Shown one piece after another: positions 4,716 to 53,390 of a DNA stretch of 64,000 nt. The stretch lies in contig NZ_OZ075108.1 in assembly GCF_964186625.1 (NCBI RefSeq), positions 1,798,001 through 1,862,000 of the forward strand. The letters are read 5' to 3'. Positions within the stretch are counted from its first letter, which is position 1. Every line of letters starts with the position of its first letter. This DNA is from Asticcacaulis sp. MM231 (lineage in GTDB: Bacteria > Pseudomonadota > Alphaproteobacteria > Caulobacterales > Caulobacteraceae). Both the position numbers and the translations under genes were made by a program. The notes beneath the pieces were generated by a model. That model saw only the letters and a list, made by a program, of their open reading frames with translations, was not told where the DNA came from and ran no database searches.

Positions 4716-5454
4716 ATGAAGCGCGTCACCGTTTCCGGATGGGCTATGCTTGCGGCTGTGGCGGCGTGCGTGGTTATTCCGGCCTCCGCCCAGGTGCCAC
4801 CGCCCGATCGTGGCGGTAATGGTGGTGATGCGCCGCACTATGTCGATAGCGCGGATTACGATCCGCAGCCCTATTATGTCGATGGCGTGCAGTATAAGCC
4901 CTATGTGCCGGAAAAGAAAAAAGCCAAGCCAGCGGCCGAAGCGGTCAAGCCCGCGTCCACTCCGGTATCGCCGAGCGATACGCCTGTGAGCGAACTCCAT
5001 CCGTTTGTGCCGCAGCAGACGCCGTCCAAGGTGGCGCAAGCCGAGGCAACCTCCAAATCAGCATCGTCTTCTGAGGCCAGCGCGTCTTCCTATGCGCCGC
5101 AAAAACGTGCTCGTTATGCTGTGGCGATTATCGAGGCGCTCGATAAGGTGACGGCGGAAAGCGTGCGTTTTGAGGCGCCGATCGGCAAGCCCATCCGCTA
5201 CAAGGGCCTGATCTATACGGTCAAGGCCTGCGAAACAACGGCTGAAGACGAGCCGATGTCGGATGCCATGGCCTATGTACGCGTGCGCACCAATCCGACG
5301 GCGGCCACCAATACGTCACCGGCGATCAAGTCCAAGGAAGTTTTCCGCGGCTGGACGTTTGCCTCGAACTCCGAGCCTCAATCCTATCCAGCATCCGGTC
5401 TATGATGCCTGGGTGATCAGTTGCCGGCAGCCCCTGATCAGCGCCACGAGCTAA
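4716..5454 (+). CDS. DUF2155 periplasmic protein, single-base frameshift near its C terminus
   Basis: An exported protein: signal peptide in residues 1-26 (ending PASAQ), a Pro/Ala/Lys-rich linker, then the DUF2155 domain (ALDKVTAESVRFEAPIGKP, KGLIYTVKACETTA, VFRGWTFAS). The frame stops at 5405, but the family's ending SLNPIQHPVYDAWVISC continues in another frame to a stop at 5454. Removing one A from GAACTC (5366-5371) joins the two and gives GWTFASTPSLNPIQHP. I annotate the repaired extent. Its stop overlaps the convergent aat stop by four bases. DUF2155 has no assigned biochemical role; its place beside NDUFA12 is conserved in alphaproteobacteria. Confidence 0.85.
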
Positions 5455-6104
5455 GTCGTCAGAATGTCCATGACATCGCGCCCCGAAGCCGTGCGCGGCA
5501 AATCATAAAAATCACCTTTCAGGTCGATAGCCTGCGCCAGCCTGACCAGGTAGTCGGTCTTCGGCAGTTCGATTACGCCGAACTGGCTCAGATGGTCGGT
5601 CTGGAATTGGCAATCGAGCAGGCTGAACCCGCCGGCTTTCAGGCGCGCCACCAGGTGCACAAGGGCGATCTTCGAGACGTCACGTTCGCGCGACACCATG
5701 CTTTCACCAAAGAAGGCGCCGCCGATAGAGACCCCATACAGGCCGCCCAGCAATTGACTGTCATCGCCCTTGGACCACACCTCGACGCTATGCGCCAACC
5801 CACGCGCGAACAGCGCCTGATAGAGCGCCTGAATCGAATGGCTGATCCAGGTCGAGGTGCGGTTCATGGCTTCCTCGGCGCAAAGCTCGATGATCTGGCT
5901 AAAGGCCGTGTCAATGCGGATGGTATAGGCATCCTTGCGCACGGTGCGGGCCAGTCGTGATGGAATGTGAAAGCCATCGAGTGGCAGGACGCCACGCATT
6001 GGCGGATCGACGAGGAACAGATAGTCGTCATCGCGCGCATCCGACATAGGGAAGATGCCGGTGCGATAGCAGTCGATCAGGTCATCAAGGGTAAAGTCAG
6101 CCAA
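5451..6104 (-). CDS. aat: Leucyl/phenylalanyl-tRNA--protein transferase
   Basis: At 217 residues it is full length for the family. Aat transfers Leu or Phe from aminoacyl-tRNA to proteins with N-terminal Arg or Lys, marking them for ClpS/ClpAP in the N-end rule pathway. Family signatures are visible: YRTGIFPM near the start, VDPPMRGVLPLDGFHIPSRL, HSVEVW, GGLYGVSIGGAFFGESMVS and LLDCQFQTDHLSQFG. It is the last gene of a minus-strand cluster aroQ-accB-accC-aat, 33 bases after accC. Confidence 0.95.
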   Translation of the reverse strand: MADFTLDDLIDCYRTGIFPMSDARDDDYLFLVDPPMRGVLPLDGFHIPSRLARTVRKDAYTIRIDTAFSQIIELCAEEAMNRTSTWISHSIQALYQALFARGLAHSVEVWSKGDDSQLLGGLYGVSIGGAFFGESMVSRERDVSKIALVHLVARLKAGGFSLLDCQFQTDHLSQFGVIELPKTDYLVRLAQAIDLKGDFYDLPRTASGRDVMDILTT

Positions 6105-6137
6105 GGCTTGCGCCGCCGTGTTGTGGGGGCAGGGACG

Positions 6138-7514
6138 TTACGCCCCTGCTTCTTGCGCCTTGATCCAGTTTTCCAGCCAGTGGATGTTGTAGTCACCCGA
6201 CTGGACATCCTTTTCCTGCAACAGGTCGAGGAAAAGCGGGATGGTCGTGTCGATACCCGTCACCACCGTTTCACCGAGCGCACGCTTGAGGCGGGCAAGA
6301 GCTTCCGGACGGTCGCGGCCGTGCACGATCAGTTTGCCGACCAGCGAGTTGTAATAGGGCGGGATGGCGTAACCGTTATAGATCGCCGAATCCAGGCGCA
6401 CACCGAGACCGCCGGGCGCGTGGAAATCAGTGACCGTTCCGGGTGAAGGCACGAAGGTGCGGGCGTTTTCAGCATTGATGCGGACTTCGATCGCATGGCC
6501 CTTGAGCTTGATATCGTCCTGGGTGAACGATAGCGGCAGGCCTTCGGCGATACGGATTTGTTCGCGCACCAGATCGATGTTGGTGACGTATTCGGTCACC
6601 GGATGCTCGACCTGAAGTCGGGTGTTCATCTCGATGAAGAAGAATTCACCGTCCTCGTACAGGAACTCGATGGTGCCGACGCCGAGATAGCCGATCTTCT
6701 TGATGGCGTTGACGACGATCATGCCGATCTTGTCGCGCGCGGCATCATCGATGGCCGGCGAAGGCGCTTCTTCGAGCACCTTCTGGTGGCGGCGCTGCAA
6801 GGAGCAGTCGCGCTCACCGAGGTGGACGACATTACCGTGGCTGTCGGCGATCACCTGGATCTCGATGTGGCGCGGCTTCTGGAGATAACGTTCCATATAA
6901 ACCGTCCCGTCGCCAAAGGCCGCGGCGGCTTCGGTCTGGGCACTGAGCACGGCTTCGGCGAGAAACTCGCGGTCCTTGGCGACCTTCATGCCACGTCCAC
7001 CACCGCCGGCAGCGGCCTTGATGATAAGCGGGAAGCCGATGGTTTCAGCCGCTTCCATGGCTTCCTCAACGGTCGACACGCCGCCATCGGAACCTGGAAC
7101 AACCGGGATACCGGCGTCCTTAGCGGCTTGCTTGGCGGTGATCTTGTCGCCCATCATGCGGATGTGTTCGGGCTTCGGACCGATGAAGGTCATGCCGTGG
7201 GCGCCGACGATCTCAGCGAAGCGGGCGTTTTCCGACAGGAAGCCGTAGCCCGGGTGGATCGCCTGTGCGCCGGTGATTTCGGCAGCGGCGATGATCGACG
7301 GGATATTGAGATACGACTTCGAGGCCGATGCCGGCCCGATACAGACGGACTCGTCGGCCAGATGCACGTGCATGGCGGTGCGGTCGGCTTCGGAATGGAC
7401 GGCCACGGTGGCGATGCCCATTTCCTTGGCGGCGCGGATGACCCGCAGGGCGATTTCACCACGATTGGCGATGAGAATCTTGTCGAAGGTCTTTACTGGG
7501 GAATCTTGAGTCAT
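6138..7514 (-). CDS. accC: Acetyl-CoA carboxylase, biotin carboxylase subunit
   Basis: A 458-residue AccC that carboxylates biotin on AccB with ATP and bicarbonate, the first half-reaction of malonyl-CoA synthesis. The N-terminal domain starts FDKILIANRGEIALRV. The ATP-grasp domain has the glycine-rich loop KAAAGGGGRGMKV near residue 165, and the metal and biotin-binding FIEMNTRLQVEHPVTE follows. The C-terminal biotin carboxylase domain contains RLDSAIYNGYAIPPYYNSLVGKLI. Only five bases separate it from accB, a standard accBC operon. Confidence 0.97.
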   Translation of the reverse strand: MTQDSPVKTFDKILIANRGEIALRVIRAAKEMGIATVAVHSEADRTAMHVHLADESVCIGPASASKSYLNIPSIIAAAEITGAQAIHPGYGFLSENARFAEIVGAHGMTFIGPKPEHIRMMGDKITAKQAAKDAGIPVVPGSDGGVSTVEEAMEAAETIGFPLIIKAAAGGGGRGMKVAKDREFLAEAVLSAQTEAAAAFGDGTVYMERYLQKPRHIEIQVIADSHGNVVHLGERDCSLQRRHQKVLEEAPSPAIDDAARDKIGMIVVNAIKKIGYLGVGTIEFLYEDGEFFFIEMNTRLQVEHPVTEYVTNIDLVREQIRIAEGLPLSFTQDDIKLKGHAIEVRINAENARTFVPSPGTVTDFHAPGGLGVRLDSAIYNGYAIPPYYNSLVGKLIVHGRDRPEALARLKRALGETVVTGIDTTIPLFLDLLQEKDVQSGDYNIHWLENWIKAQEAGA

Positions 7515-7519
7515 GTGTC

Positions 7520-8008
7520 TTACTCGAAGACGACGAGCGCTTCGCCGAATTCGACGGGTTGGGAATCGCTGACCAGAATCTGGGCCACAACGCCTTCACG
7601 TGGCGACGGAATAGGGTTCATCGTCTTCATGGCTTCGATGATCAGCAGGGTCTGGCCTTGCTTGACCTTGTCACCCACCTTGATGAAGGCAGGCGTGCCG
7701 GGCTGGGCCTGTAGATAGACCGTGCCGACCATAGGCGATTTGATGGCGTCCTTGGCGACGGCGGACGCTGCAGCGGGAGCCGGTGCGACATCGGCCGCAG
7801 GCGCAGCAACAGGGGCCGTGGGAGCGGGCGCATAGCTTTGCGCATAGGCAACGCTGGGGGCCGCTGTAAGCTGGCGCGCCACGCGGATCTTGAGATCGCC
7901 CTGTTCGACCTCGATCTCGGTCAGCTCGGTTTCCTTCAGGATGTCGGCGAGCTTGCGGATCAGCTTAGGGTCGATCGGATCGGCGGCGGGAGCTTTGGGA
8001 GTTGTCAT
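7520..8008 (-). CDS. accB: Acetyl-CoA carboxylase biotin carboxyl carrier protein
   Basis: A 162-residue biotin carrier. The N-terminal part (IRKLADILKETELTEIEVEQGDLKIRV) is typical of AccB. An Ala/Pro-rich flexible linker covers roughly residues 50-85. The C-terminal biotinyl domain carries EAMKTMN, with the biotinylated lysine near residue 128. It presents carboxybiotin to the AccA/AccD carboxyltransferase. Its gene lies between aroQ (39 bases upstream) and accC (5 bases downstream), on the same strand. Confidence 0.97.
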   Translation of the reverse strand: MTTPKAPAADPIDPKLIRKLADILKETELTEIEVEQGDLKIRVARQLTAAPSVAYAQSYAPAPTAPVAAPAADVAPAPAAASAVAKDAIKSPMVGTVYLQAQPGTPAFIKVGDKVKQGQTLLIIEAMKTMNPIPSPREGVVAQILVSDSQPVEFGEALVVFE

Positions 8009-8047
8009 GTGATAGCCTTGTACAAAGTCTTGAAAAATAAAAAGACT

Positions 8048-8488
8048 CTACTGTTTAACGAGGGGCAAAACGGCGCGAATGGCCAGTTCATAACCAATGG
8101 AACCAAATCCTGCAACAATCCCTTTCGCCGCCAGCGACACATATGAGTGATGCCGGAAGCTTTCGCGGGCGTGGGGATTGGAGAGGTGGCATTCGATGAT
8201 GGGGATACTCAATGCCTTGCAGGCGTCATAGAGCGCTACAGAGGTGTGGGTGTAGGCTGCCGGATTGATGATCAGCGCGCTGGCCTCGGTGCGGGCCTCC
8301 TGAATCCAGTCAACCAACTGGCCTTCGTGATTGCTTTGCCGGAACACCAGACCGTGATCTGTGCCTTCAAGCAAGACGGCGCAACGCGATTCAATATCGG
8401 CGAGGGTGTCGTAGCCATAAATTTCCGGCTCTCTTACCCCAAGGAGGTTGAGGTTTGGGCCGTTGAGGACATATATGGGCTTGGACAT
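8048..8488 (-). CDS. aroQ: 3-dehydroquinate dehydratase, type II
   Basis: A 146-residue type II dehydroquinase, third step of the shikimate pathway. Signatures: [23 protein letters not shown] with the catalytic tyrosine, [12 protein letters not shown], and the [18 protein letters not shown] loop with the catalytic histidine. I start at the ATG at 8488 (MSKPIYV), because an upstream TTG would add nine residues without family support. It heads the minus-strand cluster with accBC, a common pairing in proteobacteria, and diverges from thiS. Confidence 0.96.
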
Positions 8489-8595
8489 GAAACCTTCGTA
8501 GAAGCAACGAAGCAATTCTTCTAACGTGTCGGGAAGAGGCTCACAAGCCTAGTCTCGCATTGCAACAGGCCCTTAGTGGCAAAAATGGCGTAAAA

Positions 8596-8796
8596 ATGGT
8601 GAAAATACTGTTGAACGGTGAGGAAAGGGAGGTTACGGCCACCACACTCACGGCTTTGATCGATGAAATCGGGCTCGAAGGCCGCAAGGTGGCCATCGAG
8701 AAGAATCTCGAAATCGTGCCGCGTTCGACCTATCTGTCCACGGCGATCGCCGACGGTGACCGTGTGGAAATTGTACATTTTGTAGGAGGCGGCTAA
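8596..8796 (+). CDS. thiS: Sulfur carrier protein ThiS
   Basis: A 66-residue ubiquitin-like sulfur carrier for thiazole synthesis in thiamine biosynthesis. It starts [13 protein letters not shown] and ends with the essential Gly-Gly (VHFVGGG), whose thiocarboxylate supplies sulfur to ThiG. The stop codon shares its last A with the thiG start (TAATG at 8794-8798), so the two are translationally coupled. No TPP riboswitch motif (CTGAGA or ACCTGA) is visible in the 107 bases upstream. Confidence 0.95.
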
Positions 8797-9596
8797 TGGA
8801 CGACCAAGCTTTGAAAACAGAAACATTGCCAGAGACCTGGAGTGTTGCGGGCCGCACCTTTACGTCGCGTCTGATTGTCGGCACCGGCAAGTACAAGGAC
8901 TATGCCCAGAATGCCGCCGCCGCCAAGGCGTCCGGTGCCGAAATCGTGACGGTCGCCGTGCGTCGCGTCAACCTGACCGACCCAAATCAGCCCATGCTGA
9001 TGGATTACGTGAAGCAGGACGAATTCACCTATCTGCCCAATACGGCCGGTTGCTTCACTGGCGAGGATGCGGTGCGCACCCTGCGTCTGGCGCGGGAGGC
9101 CGGTGGCTGGAATTTGGTCAAGCTCGAAGTCCTCTCCGATCCCAAGACCCTCTATCCGGACATGGAAGAGACGCTGCGCTCACTCAAGCTGCTGGTGAAG
9201 GATGGCTTCGACGTCATGGTCTATTGCAGCGATGACCCGGTCTATGCGCGCAAACTGGAAGAGGCGGGCGCCGCCGCCATCATGCCGCTGGCCGCGCCGA
9301 TCGGTTCCGGTCTCGGCATCCAGAACCCTGTCACCCTGCGCATTATCATCGAGAACGCCAAGGTGCCGGTGCTGGTCGATGCCGGGGTGGGCACAGCTTC
9401 GGAAGCGGCCGAAGCCATGGAACTGGGTTGCGACGCAGTGCTGATGAACACGGCGATTGCCGAGGCGAAAGACCCGATCCGCATGGCGCGCGCCATGAAG
9501 TATGCGGTCATGGCCGGTCGTGATGCCTATCTGGCCGGACGGATGCAGCGCAAGCTCTACGCCGATCCGTCCTCGCCGTTAGGTGGCCTGATCTAG
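8796..9596 (+). CDS. thiG: Thiazole synthase
   Basis: A 266-residue TIM-barrel enzyme that joins 1-deoxy-xylulose-5-phosphate, ThiS-thiocarboxylate and dehydroglycine to form the thiamine thiazole. Landmarks: [24 protein letters not shown], the catalytic-lysine strand [33 protein letters not shown] and [33 protein letters not shown]. The C terminus (PSSPLGGLI) is normal, so the coding sequence is intact. Its TAG stop forms part of the CTAG (9593-9596) into which the adjacent IS elements inserted. Confidence 0.96.
9593..9596. repeat. CTAG, left copy at the IS630 boundary (overlaps thiG stop)
   Basis: First of three CTAG copies (9593-9596, 10730-10733, 12166-12169) that bracket the two adjacent insertion sequences. 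The inner TA is the IS630 target duplication. The TAG is also the thiG stop codon. Confidence 0.85.
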
Positions 9597-10730
9597 TGTT
9601 GCGGAATCAACGGATGGATTCCCTTGATCTTGCAAATATGCGAGTCTGTGTCGATGGACATGGACAAAAGGCTGTTGCTGTCGCCTGAGGCTCGGGTGCG
9701 GTTGGAAGGTTGGGTGGCGGACCGGAACACGCCGCAGAAGCTTGTTTGGCGTGCGCGGATCGTGCTGATGTGGGCGGACGCGGCGAGTTTGGCGTCGATT
9801 GTGCGGACGCTGGGCAAGACCAAGAAGACGGCCTACCGCTGGCGCGATCGTTATCTTGAGCAGGGTGTCGATGGGCTTGGGCGCGACGCGACCCGGCCTG
9901 GCCGTAAGACGCCGTTGAGCGCCGAAGTCATTGCGCGTGTGGTCGAGATGACGCTGCGACAGAAGCCACCGGCTGCCACGCAATGGAGCGCGCGCACGCT
10001 TGCCAAGGCGGTGGGTCTGAGCCACACCAGCGTACAGCGCATTTGGAGCGCGCATGGGCTCAAGCCCCATTTGACCAAGACGTTCAAACTGTCGAACGAC
10101 AAGCAGTTCGTCGAGAAGGTGACGGACGTCGTCGGTCTCTATCTTGATCCGCCGGACCGGGCACTGGTGTTCTCGGTCGATGAGAAGTCACAGATCCAGG
10201 CGCTGGACCGCACCCAACCGGGCCTGCCAATGAAGAAGGGGCGGGCGGGAACGATGACCCACGACTATAAGCGGCATGGCACGACGACACTGTTCGCCGC
10301 CCTCGATGTCGCCACCGGCAGGGTGATCGGCGAATGCATGAAACGTCATCGGCACCAGGAATGGCTCAAATTCCTTCGACTCATCGACCGCAGCACGCCC
10401 AAGGGCTTCGACCTGCACCTGATCGCCGACAACTATGCCACCCATAAGCATCCGGCGGTCAAAGCATGGCTGGCCAAACATCCTCGCTTCCACATGCATT
10501 TCACCCCCACTTCGGCGTCCTGGCTCAATCAGGTCGAACGCTTTTTCGGCTTGATAACAGGCGATCGCATCCGCTGCGGCGTGTTCAAGAGTGTCGCCGA
10601 ACTCGAAGGCGCAATTCAAGACTATCTCGATCATCACAACGCCGATCCAAAGCCCTTCGTTTGGACCAAATCCGCTACAGACATTCTTGAAAAGGTCGCC
10701 AGGGGGCGACAGGCGTTAAAGTCACAACAC
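9596..10730 (+). mobile_element. IS630-family insertion sequence with TA target duplication
   Basis: An element of about 1.13 kb. The ends are imperfect inverted repeats: the left begins GTGTTGCGGAATCAACG and the right, read inward, begins GTGTTGTGACTTTAACG, with 15 of the first 21 bases matching. TA flanks both ends (9594-9595 and 10731-10732), the duplication expected of IS630/Tc1-type transposition. Because the element begins with G and ends with C, insertion into CTAG leaves a CTAG at each end. It carries one transposase gene and looks intact. Confidence 0.85.
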
Positions 10731-10733
10731 TAG
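9654..10733 (+). CDS. IS630-family transposase
   Basis: A 359-residue DDE transposase. An N-terminal helix-turn-helix region (KLVWRARIVLMWADAASLASIVRTLGKTKKTAYRWRDRY) precedes a Tc1/mariner-type catalytic core: VFSVDEKSQIQAL with the first aspartate, DLHLIADNYATHKH with the second, and SASWLNQVERFF with the acidic third residue. All catalytic residues are present, so it may be active. The start chosen is ATG 9654 (MDMDKRLLL), which matches the family start better than the ATG at 9624. The TAG stop at 10731-10733 lies outside the element: target TA plus the following G complete it. Confidence 0.9.
   Translation: MDMDKRLLLSPEARVRLEGWVADRNTPQKLVWRARIVLMWADAASLASIVRTLGKTKKTAYRWRDRYLEQGVDGLGRDATRPGRKTPLSAEVIARVVEMTLRQKPPAATQWSARTLAKAVGLSHTSVQRIWSAHGLKPHLTKTFKLSNDKQFVEKVTDVVGLYLDPPDRALVFSVDEKSQIQALDRTQPGLPMKKGRAGTMTHDYKRHGTTTLFAALDVATGRVIGECMKRHRHQEWLKFLRLIDRSTPKGFDLHLIADNYATHKHPAVKAWLAKHPRFHMHFTPTSASWLNQVERFFGLITGDRIRCGVFKSVAELEGAIQDYLDHHNADPKPFVWTKSATDILEKVARGRQALKSQH
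10730..10733. repeat. CTAG, junction copy shared by the IS630 and IS701 elements
   Basis: Middle CTAG copy. It contains the right-hand TA duplication of the IS630 element, the stop codon of its transposase, and the left 4-bp target duplication of the IS701-type element. Confidence 0.85.
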
Positions 10734-12165
10734 CACTACTTTGGCATATTATTCTTGGCGGGCTCGGCGAGGCGTTTGTCACAGTGGGGACAGCGCCTTG
10801 GTGGCGGTCGCATGAAGAGGTCGAGAATGGCCTGGCGGATGGCGGGCATTGTCGGCTGAGGCGGTGGCCCCCCAACTTTTTTTTTTCGTCCCGCTGCTTT
10901 GAGGCGGCGGGATTGGAGAAATGCAAAAGCGATCATCGCCATTAGACAATGTCGGTGCAAACCGGTCCATGACCTGCCTTCGAAGTGATCAAGCCCAAGC
11001 TCTTCCTTGAGTTGCTGATGTGCCTGTTCGCAGATCCACCTTGCCTTGATAGCCGCGGCTAGCATCTTGAGGGGGGCGTCGGCAGGCAGGTTTGACAGGT
11101 AGTATTTCTGTTCTCCGGTTGAACGCCTTTCCCCGACCAGCCAGACCTCCTCCTCGCCAGGCATGGCTTGGACACGACCGTCGCTCATACGATGCCTGTG
11201 GCCATCTGCGACCCGAACGCGGCAAGCGGCAAACTGGCAGTTCAGCTTGCCTTTGGTTCCGCGCCGCCAACTTACTTTCTTCCATTTCCCATCAGCCAAC
11301 ATCTTTTCGGCAGAGACAGCAACATCGTCAGGGACATGGTATTTGCGCCGCCTTCCGGTTGCCGCTTCCGGGAAGATTAGGCCGACGTCTGCCTGATACA
11401 CATTCTGACGCCGTGATATGCCGACGGCCCACAACAGGTCGCGCTTGCTCAGGGCCTCGCGGAACGGCCCGCTTGACCCATAGCCAGCATCGGCCAGCAC
11501 GCACCCGAACCGGGCCCCAGAGGCTATAACACGATCAATTTCCTCAATGGCGATCTCCGGCTTTGTCAGGGCAACCTGGCATTCTTGCGGGACCCGAGCC
11601 CGGTTCATCCGCGCGACATCATTCGTCCAACTCTCGGGCAAGAACAGGCGCAGGCCCACCATCACAGGCACTTCGCGCGATGCCAGCGTCACCGAAACAA
11701 GCGACTGGCAGTTGGACGTCTTGCCAAGCGAGGAAGCATATTGCGCCGCCACGCCAACCGAATGGCTGCCCTTTTTCGGCAGCGCCGTGTCATCGATGAC
11801 AAGATAACCGGCATCATCCCCCACCAGACGGTCGGCCTCCTTCAGGAGAACGGCTTCAAGCGGTCCACTTTCCCAAACGCCGTCAGAGACAAAATGATGG
11901 AGTTGGTCATAGCCAAACTCGCCATCGCGGGCGGCCATCGGCTGGACACTCTTGCGGTCACCCGGGCCAATCAGGCCTGCAATATAGGCAGGGCACAGCC
12001 GCATCCGGGTCTTATGCCGCAAGGCCACCAGGAAGGGCGTCAACCAATCTTCCAAATCTACGCGCCAATGTTCCGACATCGCCAGTCTCCTTAAAGCTGG
12101 CTCTCTATGAATCACGCAATGTCAGCCGGGGGAATCCTCAAAATTCATTTTCTGCCAAAGTAGTG
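10734..12165 (-). mobile_element. IS701-family insertion sequence with 4-bp target duplication
   Basis: A 1432-bp element with perfect 13-bp terminal inverted repeats: CACTACTTTGGCA at 10734-10746 and its reverse complement at 12153-12165. It is flanked by the direct repeat CTAG at 10730-10733 and 12166-12169, a 4-bp duplication that fits the YTAR-type target of the IS701 family. It carries one transposase on the minus strand. Perfect ends and an open gene suggest recent insertion. Confidence 0.9.
10736..12079 (-). CDS. IS701-family transposase
   Basis: A 447-residue DDE transposase of the IS701/IS4 type. The first catalytic aspartates are in YLVIDDTALPKKG, the second in CVLADAGYGSSGPF, and the glutamate lies in RWICEQAHQQLKEELGLDHFEGRSW. 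The start is ATG 12079 (MSEHWRVDL), preceded by a strong AAGGAG; an ATG 12 codons upstream lacks this. The stop codon lies inside the left inverted repeat. Near the C terminus nine consecutive A (coding strand) encode part of RKKKVGG; the frame is intact through it. Confidence 0.92.
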   Translation of the reverse strand: MSEHWRVDLEDWLTPFLVALRHKTRMRLCPAYIAGLIGPGDRKSVQPMAARDGEFGYDQLHHFVSDGVWESGPLEAVLLKEADRLVGDDAGYLVIDDTALPKKGSHSVGVAAQYASSLGKTSNCQSLVSVTLASREVPVMVGLRLFLPESWTNDVARMNRARVPQECQVALTKPEIAIEEIDRVIASGARFGCVLADAGYGSSGPFREALSKRDLLWAVGISRRQNVYQADVGLIFPEAATGRRRKYHVPDDVAVSAEKMLADGKWKKVSWRRGTKGKLNCQFAACRVRVADGHRHRMSDGRVQAMPGEEEVWLVGERRSTGEQKYYLSNLPADAPLKMLAAAIKARWICEQAHQQLKEELGLDHFEGRSWTGLHRHCLMAMIAFAFLQSRRLKAAGRKKKVGGPPPQPTMPAIRQAILDLFMRPPPRRCPHCDKRLAEPAKNNMPK

Positions 12166-12169
12166 CTAG
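12166..12169. repeat. CTAG, right copy at the IS701 boundary (overlaps stop of the DsbA-like gene)
   Basis: Right 4-bp target duplication of the IS701-type element. Read on the minus strand, its first three bases are the TAG stop of the DsbA-like gene. Without the two IS elements, the thiG and DsbA-like stop codons would overlap in a single palindromic CTAG. Confidence 0.85.
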
Positions 12170-12951
12170 GGCTTATTCGCAGCTCTGGCGGCCTCTACGG
12201 CTTTTTTTAGAGCATCGATCTTGGCGCCATCGATGGCCTGATCACCGATGACGAAGGTTGGGGTGCCGGTGGCGCCAATGTCAGCGCCGAGCGCCACCAC
12301 CTTGTCGATATGCGCCTGGATGTCGGGAGACCCAGCCAGGGCCAGGATCTGCTTCGGATCAACGCCGGCCTTGGTGAGCGCGGCATCAAGATCGGCTTCG
12401 GATTTGATGTTTTCGGTCATGAAGGCGTAATGCACAGCTTCATAATGACCCAGCCGTGCCGCCGCCAGGGCTCGCGCCGCCAGGGGGCGTGAATTTTGAC
12501 CGATGACCGGGTATTCCTTGACGATGATGGCGACGTCGGGATTTTCGGCTAAAAAGTCCCTGAGCGGCGGCGTCGAGGATCGGCAATAGCCGCAATAATA
12601 GTCAAGGAACTCGACGATCTTGATCGGTGCGTTCGGATTACCAAGGATAGGGTCTGCCTTGTCGTTGAACAGCGAGTCGTGATGGCTCTTGATGCCGGCC
12701 TTCAGCGCCTGTGATCGTTCTTCATCTCTCTGGGCTGACAGTTTGTTGCTTGCGGTTTCCAGCATGGCCGGACGGTTCAGCATGCCATGCTCGACGACAA
12801 AGCTCTGCACCTGCGGCACGACATAAGGTGCGCCAGCCAGGACAACTGCGAAGACTGCAAGGCCCGTCGTGATATTGGCCTGCGAAAAGACATCCTTCCA
12901 CAGATGGGTGCGGATGGGCGGGGCGGCTTGAGGCGTGTCGGGATCGGTCAC
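12166..12951 (-). CDS. DsbA-family thiol:disulfide oxidoreductase, membrane-anchored
   Basis: A 261-residue protein with one N-terminal membrane anchor (about residues 27-48, ITTGLAVFAVVLAGAPYVVP) and a periplasmic thioredoxin-fold domain. The redox motif CGYC appears in FLDYYCGYCRSSTPPL, after NPNAPIKIVEF. The cis-proline loop is GATGTPTFVIGD. This layout resembles the Com1/BdbD-like DsbA group that introduces or isomerises disulfides in exported proteins. It starts at GTG 12951, 11 bases after the M48 protease stop, so the two are probably co-transcribed. Its stop abuts the IS701 element; the coding sequence is complete. Confidence 0.88.
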   Translation of the reverse strand: MTDPDTPQAAPPIRTHLWKDVFSQANITTGLAVFAVVLAGAPYVVPQVQSFVVEHGMLNRPAMLETASNKLSAQRDEERSQALKAGIKSHHDSLFNDKADPILGNPNAPIKIVEFLDYYCGYCRSSTPPLRDFLAENPDVAIIVKEYPVIGQNSRPLAARALAAARLGHYEAVHYAFMTENIKSEADLDAALTKAGVDPKQILALAGSPDIQAHIDKVVALGADIGATGTPTFVIGDQAIDGAKIDALKKAVEAARAANKP

Positions 12952-12962
12952 TTAAGAGCTTT

Positions 12963-43104: not shown

Positions 43105-43121
43105 AGGTGTCCCCCAAATGA

Positions 43122-43156: not shown

Positions 43157-43177
43157 CAATCCCATTCAGGATGTGGC

Positions 43178-44239
43178 TTAGGCGGCGTTTGAGTCGGTTT
43201 TGTTGATATCTTCGGCCACGGTCACCTTGTTGCGGCCGTTGTTCTTGGAGAGGTACAGCGCCTTGTCGGCACGATCGAGCAGATCAAAGGAATCTTCGCC
43301 ATATTCGCGTTGCGCGACGCCGGCCGAAATAGTGACGGTACCGAGATCTTCATTTGTGGAGCGGCGCTTGAGTACGCGTGAGGCGATTTCGGTGCGCGCT
43401 TCATTGAGCAGGCGCTCGACATTGTCACAGGTTTCACCGGGGAACAACAGGCCGAATTCCTCGCCGCCGTAACGGGCTGCCAGACGCGGCGGACGACCGA
43501 TGCGGGCCAGAACCGAGGCGACGTAACGCAAAACCTGGTCGCCGGTCTGATGGCCCCAGGTATCGTTGAAGCGCTTGAAGTGGTCGATATCGATGACAGC
43601 AAGAGTCAGGGGCTTGGTGACATCGTCACCTTCACAATGGGCATCGAGTGCCTCATCGAAGGATTTACGGTTGGCCAGGTTGGTCAGGGCGTCGGTCATC
43701 GCTTCCATGCGCACCTGATCGAGGTGTTTGCGCAGACGATTGACTTCGCGTGAGGATTCCGTCAGGCGGCCTTCGAGAACAGTGTGATGATCCAGAACGG
43801 TATTGGTGGCTTCGGTAAGGCTGTCGATCAGGCCCTTGAGGGCGAGCGTGTCAACATCGCTCATCGACTTCTTGGCGCCTGCGAGCGTTTCTGAATAGGT
43901 TTTTTGCGTCTTCTGGGCATCGACGATGACTTCGGTGATCGAGGCCAGTTCGCGGGTCAGCTTCAGGCCGGCATCGCGCACTTCATCGTTGAGCTTCATA
44001 CGGGCGATGAACTTGCTGGCCAGGCTTTCCGACACGTCTTCGGTGATGGTTTCGCCGGCGGCGACAAGGCGGTGGATTTCCTGAGCGAGCGGACATTCCG
44101 GATCGCCGGCGACATAGAGCCATAGCTCGTAATTGAGCGGGGTTGGCCAGACACCGTGATCCTGCATCAAACGCAAGGCTTCTCCGGCCAAGGCATAGGC
44201 GGCGGGACTTCTTACGCTGATCTCTATGTCGTTGTTCAT
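43178..44239 (-). CDS. Diguanylate cyclase with GGEEF domain (DgcB-like)
   Basis: A 353-residue cytosolic protein making c-di-GMP. The N-terminal half is helical and probably coiled-coil (SLASKFIARMKLNDEVRDAGLKLTRELASITEVIVD and LTESSREVNRLRKHLDQVRMEAMTD). The C-terminal GGDEF domain has DIDHFKRFNDTWGHQTGDQVLR and the active loop RYGGEEFGLLFPG. I see no RxxD inhibitory site immediately before the loop. The layout resembles Caulobacter DgcB, which promotes surface attachment, but the orthology is inference. c-di-GMP drives the swarmer-to-stalked transition in this order. Confidence 0.9.
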   Translation of the reverse strand: MNNDIEISVRSPAAYALAGEALRLMQDHGVWPTPLNYELWLYVAGDPECPLAQEIHRLVAAGETITEDVSESLASKFIARMKLNDEVRDAGLKLTRELASITEVIVDAQKTQKTYSETLAGAKKSMSDVDTLALKGLIDSLTEATNTVLDHHTVLEGRLTESSREVNRLRKHLDQVRMEAMTDALTNLANRKSFDEALDAHCEGDDVTKPLTLAVIDIDHFKRFNDTWGHQTGDQVLRYVASVLARIGRPPRLAARYGGEEFGLLFPGETCDNVERLLNEARTEIASRVLKRRSTNEDLGTVTISAGVAQREYGEDSFDLLDRADKALYLSKNNGRNKVTVAEDINKTDSNAA

Positions 44240-44368
44240 TCGTTTTCTGGCCCCCTCTTCAGGGACCTTCCCTGGCGGTCTTTGCTACCTGATTCTTCGG
44301 GTAGCCCGGATAACTTAGACGAACTTCTCTGACAGGCGGTTAACGCGATCTCAAAAAATACAAGCGCG

Positions 44369-45835: not shown

Positions 45836-46045
45836 GACACTCTTCAAATCGTTCCATGTCCTGACAAGCCTTCTTGGGAGGAATGGAATAAAAGGGCGCC
45901 AATCTGAGCGCCAGGGGGGGCAGCCGTCGTTTATGCTGGCGGGCATTAAGCCACGGGACACATAAACGAACACGCGCCAGATTGCGGCGCGTGCGTGTCT
46001 GATAACAGAATTTCCAGTAATTAACAGGCTTTTCTTGAGCGGCGG

Positions 46046-48130
46046 CTAGACGTCGAGATCATCAGTGACGAATTCAGCGTGGTCCTGAATATAGCGGAAG
46101 CGCAGTTCAGGCTTACGACCCATCAGAGTCTCGACCAGATCTTGCACGTCTTCTTCATCGTGCGGCAGGGTGACACGGGCCAGTGTCCGCGTCTTCGGGT
46201 CCATGGTGGTTTCCTTGAGCTGGGACGCCATCATTTCACCGAGGCCTTTGAAACGGCCGATTTCAGGCTTCTTACCCTTGAATTCCTTGGCGATGAGCTC
46301 TGCCCGGTGGGCATCATCACGCGCATAGAAGGTCTTGCCACCATGGCTCAGACGATACAGCGGCGGCATGGCCAGGAACAAATTACCGTTACGAATAATG
46401 CCTGGCATGGTGCGATAGAAGAAGGTGATGAGCAGCGAAGCGATGTGCGCGCCATCGACATCAGCATCCGTCATGATGATGATGCGCTCATACCGCAGAT
46501 CGGTGTCCTTGAACTTGGCACCAGGTTGCACGCCAAGCGCCAGGCCAAGATCGGACAGTTCGGCATTCTGGCGTGCTTTGTCGCCCGTGGCCGAGGCTAC
46601 GTTGAGGATCTTGCCACGCAAGGGCAGGATGGCCTGTGTGTTGCGGTTGCGGCCCTGCTTGGCAGAACCGCCGGCCGAATCGCCTTCGACGATGAAGAGT
46701 TCTGTGCCTATAGCGTCCTGACGGGCGCAATCTGACAGTTTGCCCGGCAGGCGCAGCTTGCGCGTGGCGGAGGCACGCTGGACTTCCTTGTCCTTGCGGC
46801 GTTTGAGACGTTCCTCGGCACGTTCGACAATGAACTGTAGAATGCGGTCGGCCTGCTTGGGCGCCGAGGTCAGCCAGTGATCGAACGGATCGGCCAGCGC
46901 CTTCTCCACCAACCGCTGTGCGTCGCTTGACGACAGGCGGTCCTTGGTCTGACCCTGGAATTCCGGGTTGCGAATGAAGACCGAGATGACAATGCCGGCA
47001 TAGGCGGCGACGTCTTCGGCGGTGATCAGGCCGCCACGCTTGTCGCCGGTCATTTCGGCGTAACCTTTAAGCGATCTCGTCAGGGCGGCGCGCAAGCCAG
47101 CTTCGTGAGTGCCGCCATCAGGTGTCGGTATGGTGTTGCAGTAACTCTGGCAAAAACCATCGTGCTCGCCAAAACCGGCGCCAGACCATACTACGGCCCA
47201 TTCGACCGCGCCGGCTTCGCCTTTACGTTCCACACGACCTGAGAAGATGTCGCCCAGGGTTTCGGTATCCTTGACGCGCTCAGCCAGGTAATCGGCCAGA
47301 CCATTGGGGAAGTAGAACTTGTCCTCGGCCGGGGTTTGATCTTGTATAAGTTCGGCTGCACACTTCCAGAAAATCTGGACGCCCCGGAACAAATAGGCCT
47401 TCGCCTTGGCCATACGGTAAAGGCGGGCAGGTTTGAAGCGGGCCTCGGCGCCGAAGATTTCGGGGTCTGGCAGGAAACGTTCGAGCGTGCCTTTTTTCTT
47501 TGACGGACCGACCTGCTCGACGTCCGTCAGTTTGTGACCTTTTGAAAAGCTCTGACGCCACTCAAAACCATCGCGCCATACAGTGACTTCGAGCTTTTCG
47601 GACAGGGCATTGACCACCGAAATGCCGACCCCATGGAGGCCGCCTGAGGTTTCATAGGCCTTGCCCGAGAACTTGCCGCCAGAATGCAGCATGGTCATAA
47701 CGACTTCGAGCGCCGATTTACCAGGATATTTCGGGTGGGGATCGACCGGGATGCCGCGACCATCATCGCGCACACTCAGGTAGCCGTCTTTGTCGAGTTC
47801 GACCCAGATTGCCTTGGCGTGACCTGCCACGGCTTCGTCCATGGCATTGTCGAGCACCTCGGCGAAGAGATGGTGCAGAGCTTTTTCATCGGTGCCGCCG
47901 ATATACATACCGGGGCGTTTGCGCACAGGCTCCAGACCTTCCAGCACCTCGATGCTGGAGGCGCCATAACCGGCGTCAACGATAGACGGCTCATGTGGCT
48001 TGGCGGGTTCAGGCGTTTTTGTGGCTTTTACTGGCACGGAAGCGGGCACAGCGGCAGCGGATGCGGCTTCAGAAGCAGCAGGCTTTTCGGGCTCATCGCC
48101 AAAAAGAGAGGGCAGGGTACTGGACGTCAT
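46046..48130 (-). CDS. parE: DNA topoisomerase IV subunit B
   Basis: A 694-residue ATPase subunit of topoisomerase IV, which decatenates chromosomes at division. A 45-residue Ala/Pro-rich extension precedes the GHKL ATPase domain (SSIEVLEGLEPVRKRPGMYIGGT, LDNAMDEAVAG, DDGRGIPVDPHPKYPGKSALEVV, SGGLHGVGISVVNALS). The Toprim domain has LFIVEGDSAGGSAKQGRNRNTQAILPLRGK and MTDADVDGAHI. GRFKGLGEMMASQLKETTMDP closes the catalytic part. The HHLFAEVLDNAMDE and PGKSALEVV features favour ParE over GyrB. A terminator separates it from the upstream porin gene. Confidence 0.94.
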   Translation of the reverse strand: MTSSTLPSLFGDEPEKPAASEAASAAAVPASVPVKATKTPEPAKPHEPSIVDAGYGASSIEVLEGLEPVRKRPGMYIGGTDEKALHHLFAEVLDNAMDEAVAGHAKAIWVELDKDGYLSVRDDGRGIPVDPHPKYPGKSALEVVMTMLHSGGKFSGKAYETSGGLHGVGISVVNALSEKLEVTVWRDGFEWRQSFSKGHKLTDVEQVGPSKKKGTLERFLPDPEIFGAEARFKPARLYRMAKAKAYLFRGVQIFWKCAAELIQDQTPAEDKFYFPNGLADYLAERVKDTETLGDIFSGRVERKGEAGAVEWAVVWSGAGFGEHDGFCQSYCNTIPTPDGGTHEAGLRAALTRSLKGYAEMTGDKRGGLITAEDVAAYAGIVISVFIRNPEFQGQTKDRLSSSDAQRLVEKALADPFDHWLTSAPKQADRILQFIVERAEERLKRRKDKEVQRASATRKLRLPGKLSDCARQDAIGTELFIVEGDSAGGSAKQGRNRNTQAILPLRGKILNVASATGDKARQNAELSDLGLALGVQPGAKFKDTDLRYERIIIMTDADVDGAHIASLLITFFYRTMPGIIRNGNLFLAMPPLYRLSHGGKTFYARDDAHRAELIAKEFKGKKPEIGRFKGLGEMMASQLKETTMDPKTRTLARVTLPHDEEDVQDLVETLMGRKPELRFRYIQDHAEFVTDDLDV

Positions 48131-48187
48131 AAGGTCAACATGAAGTGATTCGGTCTTCCCTCATAAAGATGCAAGAGGCCGCCCACA

Positions 48188-48221
48188 ATAAAAAAGGCCG
48201 CGAACACGAAGGTTCGCGGCC
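48188..48221 (-). terminator. Rho-independent terminator after the first TorF-like gene
   Basis: On the minus strand GGCCGCGAAC (48212-48221) pairs perfectly with GTTCGCGGCC (48196-48205) around a six-base loop, followed by TTTTTTA. It lies 33 bases past the porin stop. Confidence 0.93.
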
Positions 48222-48253
48222 AGCTATTTCTTTGCCCTTGGTCAGGCTTAGAA

Positions 48254-48901
48254 TTAGAAAGAGGCCTTGAGCGTGGCGGCGAAGGTCGAAGGCTGCTTCG
48301 ACGCATCGGCCCAACGCAGGTCAAGACCCAGCGTGCTGTTGATGGCGTAGGTAACACCGATGTTCTTGGTGGTGTAGCCGTAGGCTTCGTATTGGCCCAA
48401 GGCGCCCGAAACTGACCACTTGTCGGAGATCGGGTACGAAGCGTTGACTTCATAATAAGGGTCTTCGAGGGTTTCGGTATCGAGATACATAGCAGCGCCA
48501 ATGGCGCCCTTGCCCAGCGAGTGGCTGACAGCAGCCTTCAGTTCGCCGATCGTGTCACCGCCCGAACCCGGGTAGGTATAGGCGATCGCGCCGAAATCGA
48601 AATTGAAATCACCGACCGAAGGGGTCAGGCCCATGTACAGGTCAACTTCGGTCGAAGCCTTGTCATCGCCATAGGCAAAATCAACGTTCGAACCCCAGAC
48701 GCCTGCATAGAAGGTGCCCTTCTTGTAATCAATGCCGCCTTGCAAGGCTGCGTTGTCGTCGGTTTGAGTGACGCCGCGCCAAACGTAGTTGCTCGTGACA
48801 GCCAGATTATAGCTGAGCTTGCCGGCTTCCTGAGCCGATGCAGCTCCGCCGGCGAAAAGTGCGCTGATGGCGACAGCGGCGACAAGAAGAGTCTTTTTCA
48901 T
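48254..48901 (-). CDS. TorF-family putative porin (copy 1)
   Basis: A 215-residue outer-membrane beta-barrel candidate. Signal peptide residues 1-23 (MKKTLLVAAVAISALFAGGAASA-Q), then the family opening LSYNLAVTSNYVWRGVTQTDDNAALQGGIDYKKGTFYAGVWGSNVDF and amphipathic strands to the end, with a C-terminal aromatic (KASF). The family name reflects resemblance to a porin; the substrate is unknown. An upstream in-frame extension to 49012 is not supported. The first of two related genes in tandem. Confidence 0.88.
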   Translation of the reverse strand: MKKTLLVAAVAISALFAGGAASAQEAGKLSYNLAVTSNYVWRGVTQTDDNAALQGGIDYKKGTFYAGVWGSNVDFAYGDDKASTEVDLYMGLTPSVGDFNFDFGAIAYTYPGSGGDTIGELKAAVSHSLGKGAIGAAMYLDTETLEDPYYEVNASYPISDKWSVSGALGQYEAYGYTTKNIGVTYAINSTLGLDLRWADASKQPSTFAATLKASF

Positions 48902-49280
48902 GATTATATCCCAGTTCAGTTGTTGTGCCGGAGAAACGACGTCCGGCCTTCGTGGTGTTTGACGGTTGTTGGTAAAACCTGAGTTAATGTAGCAAGTTTT
49001 TAGGGTGAGCAAAGTCCCCTATGTCACTTAGCAACGCTTTGATGTATATTTGCCACGTCATTTGTGAAGCCGAGCGACCGTCAACACGTACCGTAAGTCC
49101 ATGTCTAAGCTCTTTAAGGGTAAGTGCTTTTAGTAATTTTCAGGCCGGCTGTCATATTTTTGCAATCAAAAAGTTCAAAGAAATCAGACGGTCGTCAGTG
49201 TAGCCTAATTGCATGTAGAAAAGGCAGGGCCGTGCGCACACTTAACGCACGGCCCATATCCCGGCAGTTGAAAGATTCGC
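48902..49280. other. Spacer between the two TorF-like genes
   Basis: About 380 bases. It holds the terminator of the upstream porin (49218-49255) and presumably the promoter and leader of the downstream one. No further open frame with coding character is visible; the 60-codon frame at 49021 has no family features. Confidence 0.5.
49218..49255 (-). terminator. Terminator after the second TorF-like gene
   Basis: GGGCCGTGCG (49246-49255 read on minus) pairs perfectly with CGCACGGCCC (49227-49236) around a nine-base loop, followed on the minus strand by TGCCTTTTC. Confidence 0.8.
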
Positions 49281-49943
49281 TTAGAAAGCGGCCTTCACGC
49301 TGACGATGAAGCGCGACTTGGCAGCTTCAGACGAATCCTCGGGAATGTTGGTGTCCGAGAAGCGACCGTCGATGGCGAACACGGGGGTGATCGCATAGGT
49401 CAGGCCAATGTTGCCGGTCGTGTACTTGAAGCCAGCCGACTCTTGCTCACCCAGTGCGCCCGAAACGCTGAGCTTCGATGTCAGAGGATATGAGGCGTTG
49501 ATTTCGTAATAGTTGGTGTCATCGAAATCGACATTGTGGAAGTAAGCAGCGCCGATGGTGCCCTTATAGAGCGGGTGGCTGACGGCAGCCTTCAGTTCGG
49601 TCGAATCAAGGTCTTCGTCATTGTAGTTGTAGTAGATAGCGCCCAGATCGAACGTGAAGTCCTTGTAGGTTGGCTTCATGCCGGCATAGAGATCAAGTTC
49701 GTAATCGGCGAAGTCGACGTTCGAAGCCCAGCCGCCCACGTAGAACAGGCCGTGGCTGTAGTCGACGCCGCCCTGGATGGCCGGGTCACCGTCGGTTTGG
49801 GTGAAGCCGCGGAAGACGTAATCGCTGGTGGCGGAAACGTTGTAGCTGATGGTGCCGCCGGCGAATTCAGTTGTGGCGGAAGCCGAGCCAGCAAAAGCGG
49901 TGGCTGCGATAAGGGCCGTAGCGGCCAGGAGCATTTTTTTCAT
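49281..49943 (-). CDS. TorF-family putative porin (copy 2)
   Basis: A 220-residue paralogue of the neighbour at 48254. Signal peptide ending SASA-T at residue 23; family opening ISYNVSATSDYVFRGFTQTDGDPAIQGGVDYSHGLFYVGGWASNVDFAD; acidic loops (NYNDEDLDSTELKAAVSHPLYKGTIGAAYFHN) and a terminal VSVKAAF. Both copies share the YEINASYP(I/L)(S/T)(D/S)K blocks, so the pair arose by duplication. The genes lie beside amtB and glnBA, but any link to nitrogen uptake is only suggested by position. Confidence 0.88.
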   Translation of the reverse strand: MKKMLLAATALIAATAFAGSASATTEFAGGTISYNVSATSDYVFRGFTQTDGDPAIQGGVDYSHGLFYVGGWASNVDFADYELDLYAGMKPTYKDFTFDLGAIYYNYNDEDLDSTELKAAVSHPLYKGTIGAAYFHNVDFDDTNYYEINASYPLTSKLSVSGALGEQESAGFKYTTGNIGLTYAITPVFAIDGRFSDTNIPEDSSEAAKSRFIVSVKAAF

Positions 49944-50134
49944 TATTGTGTCCTCAGATAGAGTTTGTGTGCCAACCCCCGTCCGAAGCGTTTCCCACGT
50001 CAGTTATGGTAAATTTTATTGTGACGTAGGGTTAGATTACATATTTGTGACAGCTCTCCAAGGGGGTGTGGCCAGAAAACACAATTGTGTGCCAAAAATA
50101 CACTGACCGTGTTCGAAACATGGCGAAAGCCTAA

Positions 50135-50169
50135 ACAAAAACGGGACGCCCCAGAGGACGTCCCGTTTC
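50135..50169 (-). terminator. Terminator after amtB
   Basis: On the minus strand AAACGGGACG (50159-50168) pairs with CGTCCCGTTT (50139-50148), followed by TTGTTTAG. It sits about 30 bases past the amtB stop. Confidence 0.85.
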
Positions 50170-50197
50170 TGTTTGTGCAACTGTTAAAGTTTTTAGT

Positions 50198-51649
50198 TTA
50201 GTGATCCATAACTTCATCATGAAGCGACGAGTCAAGGCCAGCTTCTTCCTGATCGGCAGTCACGCGGAGACCTGTCGTGAACTTGCAGATAATCAGGATA
50301 AGGAATGTACCTACAGCCGACCAGGCGATAGTCACGCCGAGGCCAATGATCTGGTTCATCACGGTGGCCCCTTCCGCCAGAGAATTGATGCTCGTGGTGG
50401 CGAAGACACCCGTAAGGATGGCCCCCAGGGCACCACCGGCGCCATGGATTCCGAAAGCGTCTAGCGAGTCGTCATAGCCCAGGATCTTCTTCATCCAGGT
50501 GGCCGAGATGTAACAGACTGGGCCGGCAACCGCACCGATGATCATGGCGCTCATAGGCGTTACGAAGCCGCAGGCGGGGGTGATGGCAACAAGACCTGCA
50601 ACCAGACCGGAAAGAATACCGATCAGCGAAGGCTTGCCGCGGAAAATCCACTCCACGACTTTCCAGGTCAAGCCAGCCGCGCAGGTCGCCAGAAGGGTAT
50701 TGAGGAGAGCCACAGAAGCAACAGCGTCACCCGCCCATTCTGAACCCGCATTGAAGCCGATCCAGCCAACGAAAAGCAATGAAGCGCCAACCAGAACGAA
50801 GATCGGGTTGTTGGCGGGCATCGCTTCTGTACCGTAGCCTTTACGTCGGCCGAGGAAGATGGCGGCGACAAGACCGGCGATGCCGGCATTGACGTGAACA
50901 ACCGCGCCACCGGCGAAGTCCTTGACGCCCATAGTGCCAAGGAAACCGCCGCCCCAGACCATGTGACAGATGGGAGCGTAGACGAGAATGCTCCACAGCG
51001 CCATGAAGAGGATCAGACCCGAGAACTTTACGCGCTCAGCAAACGCGCCCGTGATCAGAGCAGGCGTGATGATGGCGAAAGTCATTTGATAGGCAATCCA
51101 GGTGTATTCCGGCACACCTGCGGTAGCCATATAGGCCGTTGTAGGTGTGACATTGTTCAGGAACAGCGTATCAAAACCACCGAAGTATTTGTTCAGCTCT
51201 GCAGCCGGGATGCCAAACATATCTGCGGAAACAGAGCCGAAAGACATGCTGTAACCGGCTACGAACCAAAGAACAGCGACAACAGCGGTCACGCTGACCG
51301 ACTGGGTCACGGTCGCAATAACGTTCTTGCGGCGCACCATACCGCCGTAGAAGAGAGCCAAGCCTGGAAGGGTCATCATCAGCACCATGGCGGTGGAGAA
51401 GATGAGGTAGGTTGTATCGGCCTTATCAAGGGCCAGTTCTTTCTGTGAAGCCAACAGGGCCGGGGCAGGCGCGGCCTCGGCGGCTTCGGGCGCAGCGACC
51501 AACTCTTCAACAGAGGCGGCTGCCGAGGTTACAGCTTCAGCCGACGCCGGAGCGGCGTCCTGAGCCAGGGCGAGACCGGCGGCGGGTGCCACCAGCATGA
51601 GAGTTGCCGCCGCAGCGATGGCTCTCGAGAGTTTGATCCACGTTTTCAA
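50198..51649 (-). CDS. amtB: Ammonium transporter AmtB
   Basis: A trimeric-type Amt channel, 483 residues from the chosen start. A cleavable signal peptide (to about residue 31, GLALAQ) and an Ala/Glu-rich segment precede eleven membrane helices. Conserved blocks: LMTLPGLALFYGGMVRRKN, FGSVSAD, YTWIAYQMTFAIITPALITGAFAER, WSILVYAPICHMVWGGGFL, DFAGGAVVHVNAGIAGLVAAI with a pore histidine, VGWIGFNAGSEW and FGIHGAGGALGAILTGVFA with the second histidine. I start at TTG 51649, five bases after AAGGGGG; another in-frame TTG is at 51703. It lies near glnB, its usual PII partner. Confidence 0.94.
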   Translation of the reverse strand: MKTWIKLSRAIAAAATLMLVAPAAGLALAQDAAPASAEAVTSAAASVEELVAAPEAAEAAPAPALLASQKELALDKADTTYLIFSTAMVLMMTLPGLALFYGGMVRRKNVIATVTQSVSVTAVVAVLWFVAGYSMSFGSVSADMFGIPAAELNKYFGGFDTLFLNNVTPTTAYMATAGVPEYTWIAYQMTFAIITPALITGAFAERVKFSGLILFMALWSILVYAPICHMVWGGGFLGTMGVKDFAGGAVVHVNAGIAGLVAAIFLGRRKGYGTEAMPANNPIFVLVGASLLFVGWIGFNAGSEWAGDAVASVALLNTLLATCAAGLTWKVVEWIFRGKPSLIGILSGLVAGLVAITPACGFVTPMSAMIIGAVAGPVCYISATWMKKILGYDDSLDAFGIHGAGGALGAILTGVFATTSINSLAEGATVMNQIIGLGVTIAWSAVGTFLILIICKFTTGLRVTADQEEAGLDSSLHDEVMDH

Positions 51650-51982
51650 AGTATCCCCCTTGGATAGCGGATATTGCACATGCTCACAGTGCAGCGACTT
51701 CAAGGCATCGCAAAGAGGATTGTGAGGTTAACGAAGCGTCAACGGGGCTTGCTGGCCGATTTGCGTCATTTATGTGTCGGAATGGCGGGAAACAACGGAA
51801 AATAGGCGCGTTTTTAATTCGTATCAAATGAAACCACAATTGTTTCGTTTGCAATTAAAATAAATCATACAATTCATAGGATTTGTCCCGCGGAATTAAC
51901 GCCGTGCCACGCTAACGAAATAGGCCGCCCAATCACGGGCGGCCTATAACAGAAGTTCATGTCTAGAAACAGGAGTTTCAGA
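51650..51982. other. Spacer upstream of amtB
   Basis: About 330 bases between the glnA stop and the amtB start. It contains the glnA terminator-like hairpin at 51921-51946 and an AT-rich stretch (about 51810-51890) that probably carries the amtB promoter. I looked for a sigma54 element (TGGCAC-N5-TTGCA) and found none convincing. Confidence 0.5.
51921..51946 (-). terminator. Hairpin after glnA
   Basis: TAGGCCGCCC and GGGCGGCCTA form a perfect ten-base stem with a six-base loop 37 bases past the glnA stop. The T tract on the minus strand is short (TTT), so termination may be weak, allowing some read-through toward amtB. Confidence 0.65.
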
Positions 51983-53390
51983 TTAGCACTTGTAATACAT
52001 CTCGAATTCGATCGGGTGAGGACGCAGTTCTAGGTTCATCACTTCTTCCATCTTCAGTTCGATGTAGGAGTCGATGAAATCGTCGTCCATCACGCCGCCC
52101 TTCTTGAGGAAGGCGCGATCCTTGTCGAGGTTTTCCAGAGCTTCACGGAGCGAACCGCAGACTTCCGGGATGTTCTTTTGCTCTTGGGGCGGTAGATCAT
52201 ACAGGTTCTTGTCGGCGGGTGCGCCCGGATCGAGGCGGTTCTCTATACCATCGAGACCAGCCATCAGCAGGGCGGTGAAGGTCAGGTAAGGGTTGCCCAT
52301 CGGATCGGGGAAGCGAGCTTCGAGGCGCTTGCCCTTCGGCGACGACACCCACGGAATACGGATCGAAGCGGAGCGGTTGCGGGCCGAATAGGCCAGCTTG
52401 ACCGGGGCTTCATAACCCGGAACCAGGCGCTTATAGCTGTTGGTCGTCGAGTTCGAGAATGCGTTGATGGCCTTGGCGTGCTTGATAATGCCGCCGATGT
52501 ACCACAGGCAGAGGTCGGACAGACCGGCGTACTTGTCGCCGGCGAAGAGCGGCTTGCCGTCCTTCCAGATCGACTGGTGAACGTGCATGCCCGAACCGTT
52601 GTCGCCGAACATCGGCTTCGCCATGAAGGTCACGGTCTTGCCGTAGGCGTGAGCAACGTTCTGTACGACGTACTTGTAGAGCTGCGTGCGGTCGGCCATG
52701 GTCAGCATGTCCGAGAACTTCAGGCCCAGTTCGTGTTGGGCCGGCGCCACTTCGTGGTGGTGCTTTTCCGGTTCCATGCCCAGTTCGCCCATGACGGAGA
52801 GCATTTCGCCGCGGATGTCCTGCGCTGAGTTCGATCGGGTTGACAGGGAAATAGCCGCCCTTAGGACCAGGGCGATGGCCCATATTGCCTTCGGCGTAAA
52901 CCTTGGCGGAGTTGTGCGGCAGTTCGATCGAGTCGAAGGCGTAGCCGGTGTTGTCCGGCGAGATCGACCAGCGCACGTCGTCAAACATGAAGAATTCAGC
53001 TTCGGGACCGAAGTAAACCGTATCACCCACACCGGCCGATTGCGTATAGGCGAGGGCCTTCTTGGCGATCGAACGCGGGTCGCGGTTGTAAGGCTCGTTG
53101 GTGTCGGGGTTCACGACATCGCAGAACATGAAAAGCGTTGTTTGCTGATAGAAGGGGTCGATATAGGCCGTCTTCAGATCAGGGCGCAGCTTCATGTCGG
53201 ATTCGTTGATGGCCTTCCAGCCGGCGATCGACGAACCATCGAACATGGTGCCGTCATCGAGAAATTCTTCATCGACCAGGTCGATGTCGAAGGTCACGTG
53301 CTGGAGTTTGCCCTTAACGTCGGAGAAGCGAACGTCAACATACTTGACGTCCTTTTCCTTGATGAGCTTGAGAATGTCTGCTGCGGTCAT
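51983..53390 (-). CDS. glnA: Glutamine synthetase type I, single-base frameshift in this sequence
   Basis: The central ammonium-assimilating enzyme. The first frame starts at ATG 53390 ([24 protein letters not shown]) and includes [29 protein letters not shown] and [14 protein letters not shown]. It runs to GYFPVNPIE and is lost at GAACTC (52827-52832 on the minus strand). Removing one A gives [22 protein letters not shown] and continues through [46 protein letters not shown] and [15 protein letters not shown]. The usual adenylylation tyrosine block NLYDLPP is present. It follows glnB in a standard glnBA operon. Confidence 0.93.

Follow-up and report, generated by a model that had tools for sequence, protein, structure and literature searches.

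Five conserved genes in a stretch of 64,000 nucleotides of the Asticcacaulis sp. MM231 genome (NZ_OZ075108.1, positions 1,798,001 to 1,862,000; hereafter the window) are each interrupted by one extra base within a GANTC site. Comparison with related genomes indicates that these bases are almost certainly absent from the organism and are nanopore consensus errors at GANTC sites, presumably methylated by CcrM. The first-pass annotation of the window had proposed that they are errors left over from base-calling of long reads at methylated adenines. That reading is supported because the assembly is described as nanopore-only, MM231 has a predicted CcrM homologue, the differences are specific to one motif, run in one direction and disregard codon position, a tRNA gene is affected, and a second genome carries the same signature.

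Assembly, CcrM homologue and gene breaks in the window

GANTC is the target of CcrM, which methylates its adenine on both strands. On MM231 C1, a 372-residue ORF contains N6_N4_Mtase (PF01555) and RAMA domains, and its best match among solved structures is CcrMI (6pbd; residues 20-372, 631 bits). Its score against the NCBIfam CcrM model is 628 bits, below the curated cut-off of 830. By these domain and structure matches, MM231 encodes a predicted CcrM homologue.

Strain MM231 was sequenced on one R10.4.1 Nanopore flow cell and assembled with Canu, with no short reads mentioned, and polished with racon and with Medaka model r1041_e82_400bps_sup_v4.2.0 (PMC11556081). It has three replicons of 3,458,694 (C1), 618,632, and 570,284 bases, 4,647,610 bases in total, and 4.4% of BUSCO genes were fragmented (PMC11556081).

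The claim that five one-base breaks fall at would-be GANTC sites was borne out. All five sites read as described, and alignment to the nearest relative, Asticcacaulis benevestitus DSM 16100 (G017, NZ_AQWM01000001.1; 95% identity over a 2.5-kb gene), identifies each break as a one-base insertion inside GANNTC where the relative reads GANTC. The first-pass annotation had also suggested comparing the same genes in a close relative; in A. benevestitus all five are unbroken, each in a single open frame. The affected genes are a DUF2155 gene (break at 5366..5371, plus strand; first piece ORF 4716-5405, Pfam DUF2155; 245 residues in A. benevestitus), tyrS (31634..31639, minus strand; pieces 31616-32167 and 30853-31602; 437 residues), an alpha/beta-hydrolase-like gene (33954..33959, minus strand; first piece ORF 33846-34427; 215 residues), sufD near its start (38969..38974, plus strand; later part ORF 38853-39884; 351 residues), and glnA (52827..52832, minus strand; pieces 52431-53390 and 51983-53032; 468 residues). 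Both pieces match the family for tyrS and glnA, and one piece does so for the DUF2155, alpha/beta-hydrolase-like, and sufD genes (for sufD the search covered the later part). The split tyrS is the sole tyrS above the family cut-off in the MM231 genome; a third match is weak (33.6 bits) and lies below the cut-off. The extra base is likewise missing from all five sites in two more distant relatives (G019 and G022), and they have exact GANTC at just three of them (31634, 33954, and 52827), so that the site at 33954..33959 reads GANTC in all three relatives. That five of five would be very unlikely by chance agrees with a rough figure of 1.6e-10, which derives from the 1.1% of positions that are inner bases of GANNTC and ignores homopolymer ambiguity.

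The first-pass annotation reported no other indel frameshift in the window apart from prfB. This holds for the clear cases, and it does not extend to four indels near ORF starts or to the approximately 3.5 kb of the window that has no alignment to A. benevestitus and lies outside the indel check. The window has 32 indels relative to A. benevestitus, 24 of them single-base. Five of these are the gene breaks, and the other 19 are between ORFs, in a stretch without long ORFs, ahead of iscR, or near the point where an ORF could first start. Indels at 54392 and 54510 are in a stretch where the ORF list has no ORF of 150 aa, and the indel at 34591 precedes the iscR start. Those at 23954, 43108, 43128, and 45918 lie no more than about 60 bases from the earliest possible start of an ORF, and the true start of those ORFs could be later. 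A CTTTGAC motif occurs at 21877, just ahead of ORF 21974-22924, whose match to peptide chain release factor 2 begins at profile position 47; motif and ORF likely represent the programmed frameshift of prfB mentioned in the first-pass annotation.

With a likely prfB site in the window, MM231 probably shifts frame somewhere, and the five breaks might likewise be real and made harmless by ribosomal frameshifting. For these genes the idea is vanishingly improbable. Each gene is in one open frame in A. benevestitus, the three relatives lack the extra base, and conservation of a shift site, by which programmed frameshifting is recognized, was absent from these three relatives at all five sites. The only feature common to the five genes is GANNTC. 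An insertion also affects a tRNA gene, and the commoner changes at the same motif are substitutions, which cause no frameshift.

Insertions and substitutions at GANTC in two genome blocks

MM231 was compared with A. benevestitus in two blocks, one of 464 kb that surrounds the window and lies near mid-chromosome (389,517 bases aligned), and one of 400 kb spanning the dnaA start (352,536 bases aligned). In the first block, MM231 gained one base at 14 of 669 A. benevestitus GANTC sites, and A. benevestitus gained none at 535 MM231 sites. The second block gave 16/534 and 0/445, respectively, which brings the two blocks (approximately 742 kb aligned) to 30/1,203 in MM231 and 0/980 in the other direction. 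A whole-genome count of GAACTC did not set MM231 apart from 12 relatives (13 genomes), a point against the error reading; relative to the GAACTC that occur naturally, only a small number of added insertions is expected.

Long-read assemblies also contain ordinary homopolymer or random indel errors, which could land at GANTC by chance, and some of the other indels in the first block do sit in short runs. This explanation deserves very little weight. Fifteen other split palindromes of like shape, pooled, gained a base in MM231 at 10 of 23,882 sites in the first block (p 1.7e-16 against the GANTC rate), and when all 5-mers are tallied, the strongest depletion in MM231 is that of GAATC and GACTC and the strongest enrichment that of AATTC and AACTC.

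A tally of frameshifts inside and outside GAN(N)TC, also suggested in the first-pass annotation, was made over the predicted ORFs of the 464-kb block, and its outcome was divided: the motif is touched by 15 of 27 single-base insertions and by 3 of 15 single-base deletions. The remaining 12 insertions and 12 deletions are off the motif, so other indels exist; many are in doubtful ORFs, near starts, or paired. A filter for real frame breaks kept 20 of the 45 frame-shifting indels in predicted ORFs, and eight of the 20 are strict GANTC cases. The filter lost the tRNA-Asp site described below, two GANTC cases close to where an ORF could first start, and glnA, the last because a longer antisense ORF was picked. 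Single-base losses in MM231 occur on four GANTC sites of the relative (G000:C1:1435107, 1729747, 1795940, and 1821954, where G000 is MM231), and the error may therefore also take the form of a deletion, though less often.

Substitutions at GANTC are four to five times as frequent as insertions. In the first block, the G next to the adenine that CcrM targets is replaced by A in MM231 (GANTC to AANTC) at 84 sites, compared to 11 in reverse, and in the second block at 71 compared to 5. Together these are 155 and 16, an excess of 139 beside the 30 insertions. MM231 retains 64% of the relative's GANTC sites in the first block, compared to 80% retained the other way, and for each of the other 15 motifs the two retention values lie less than 2.5 points apart. 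The window itself has 15 coding positions, scattered over 6350..61054 on either strand, that read AANTC where A. benevestitus reads GANTC and are candidate substitution miscalls. At one of them the N also differs from the relative. Both outgroups have the relative's base at 12 of the 15, the outgroups are mixed at one, and both differ from it at two. Such substituted sites account for part of the window's GANTC shortfall against the relative. By itself, the window contains 96 GANTC, and shuffled sequences give an expectation of 292.

Codon position separates these substitutions from ordinary divergence. In the first block, 73 coding sites changed from GANTC to AANTC (8 in reverse), with 27, 26, and 20 at codon positions 1, 2, and 3. 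For the remaining G-to-A and C-to-T differences that point the same way (n = 5,607), the shares are 17%, 7%, and 76% (Fisher p 5e-18). Real divergence is filtered by selection, and the even spread of the GANTC substitutions gives no sign of it; 47 of the 73 alter the residue.

Both kinds of difference depend on neighboring bases. Of the 308 oriented sites where GA follows A or C and N is C or T, 66 have the substitution, compared to 18 of the other 625. Insertions are present at 10 of 152 oriented sites with C at N, compared to 3 of 781 otherwise. Reliance on so few bases would fit a caller that reads k-mers. Differences also extend beyond reading frames. One of two adjacent tRNA-Asp genes (G000:C1:1869859-1869933) is 78 nt long, and its twin and both A. 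benevestitus copies are 77 nt. The extra base is within a GANNTC, in what its place suggests is the T-arm region, where there is no reading frame.

If hemimethylated DNA escaped miscalling, error rates would be expected to differ between origin and terminus. No such difference was seen (87/448 and 98/528, p 0.74), so hemimethylation during the cell cycle left no visible mark.

A second nanopore-only genome and the source of the differences

Asticcacaulis sp. ZE23SCel15 was sequenced with Nanopore R10.4.1 only, called with Guppy 6.4.6, and assembled with Flye without polishing (3,774,217 bases; PMC10586169). A repeat of the signature was predicted in advance for this one genome, which was compared with A. 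endophyticus over 272,721 aligned bases, and the prediction was borne out: GANTC became AANTC at 74 sites, compared to 7 in reverse. Coding sites contributed 67 (8 in reverse), at codon positions 31/23/13, and approximately 81% of other transitions are at the third position. One base was gained at 3 of 469 sites, with 0 of 369 in reverse. Since ZE23SCel15 comes from another caller and is unpolished, the factor shared with MM231 is nanopore reading of native DNA rather than one model. The whole-genome ratio of CAACTC to CGACTC was picked after the context dependence had been seen, and it is not constant across branches of the genus. Among 25 genomes, ZE23SCel15 ranks first (3.14) and MM231 second (2.65), with the next at 1.76; the sequencing mode is established for these two.

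These results bear on whether the differences could be biological. The insertions and G-to-A changes might be real and recent mutations at methylated GANTC that selection has not yet sorted, and direction and motif specificity on their own would fit a mutational hotspot specific to the lineage. Real mutation would, however, require that a growing cell has its sole above-cut-off tyrS split, along with glnA and sufD, has one tRNA-Asp copy altered, and bears an estimated thousand unselected changes. The signature also repeats in nanopore-only ZE23SCel15, and the ratio singles out no further genome among the remaining 23. We consider this explanation highly improbable. A broader form, in which methylated GANTC sites in some Asticcacaulis genuinely mutate often, by G-to-A change and one-base gain, and both MM231 and ZE23SCel15 are in a recent burst that selection has not reached, is just as hard to credit.

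Base-calling error probably arises at these sites as follows. When native DNA passes through a nanopore, the methylated adenine would disturb the signal of neighboring bases, and a caller and polisher untrained for methylation would fix a wrong consensus at approximately 1 in 7 GANTC sites. Most often the G preceding the methylated A would be called A (or the matching C called T). More rarely, an A would be read twice, breaking the reading frame. We infer that methylation is the physical cause of the miscalls at these sites.

Precedents and significance

Artefacts of this type are already known, and GANTC errors are in print for agrobacteria (PMC12710330) and Brucella (PMC12392509). The Agrobacterium nanopore assemblies resemble MM231 in having GANTC errors and SUP v4.2.0 calling, and methylation-aware models gave fewer GANTC-linked assembly errors (PMC12710330). 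Those errors were found through Illumina polishing, whereas the MM231 errors were found through a related genome and codon positions. The Brucella nanopore assemblies likewise have GANTC-linked errors, and CcrM was found in them; two potential errors are described there (PMC12392509), compared to an extrapolated thousand in MM231. R10 errors in Neisseria and Salmonella include substitutions of G/C to A/T, as in MM231, and 77 of 103 erroneous indels in Neisseria coincide with a methylated base or lie one position away (PMC12506013). The Neisseria cases reportedly mostly involve 5mC and some Salmonella substitutions adjoin 6mA (PMC12506013); in MM231 the motif is GANTC.

The present comparison adds that two published Asticcacaulis genomes appear to carry GANTC errors at scale, mainly as substitutions. 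It also adds that a relative and codon positions reveal such errors without reads. Among the papers found on Asticcacaulis MM231, which came down to its announcement, and on GANTC nanopore errors, no mention of these MM231 errors was found. Scaled from the 155 - 16 substitutions and 30 insertions in approximately 742 kb, MM231 may have about 1,000 such errors over 4.65 Mb, an extrapolation from two blocks that were not randomly chosen.

Two published genomes described as complete probably contain, by extrapolation, approximately 1,000 wrong bases each, and most are substitutions that are invisible to any frameshift check. Setting a genome against one relative and sorting the differences by motif, direction, and codon position detects such errors without raw reads, and here a plain 5-mer count recovered the motif from assemblies alone. 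Errors of this kind could mislead work on GANTC depletion, CcrM evolution, gene loss, and missense variation in Alphaproteobacteria.
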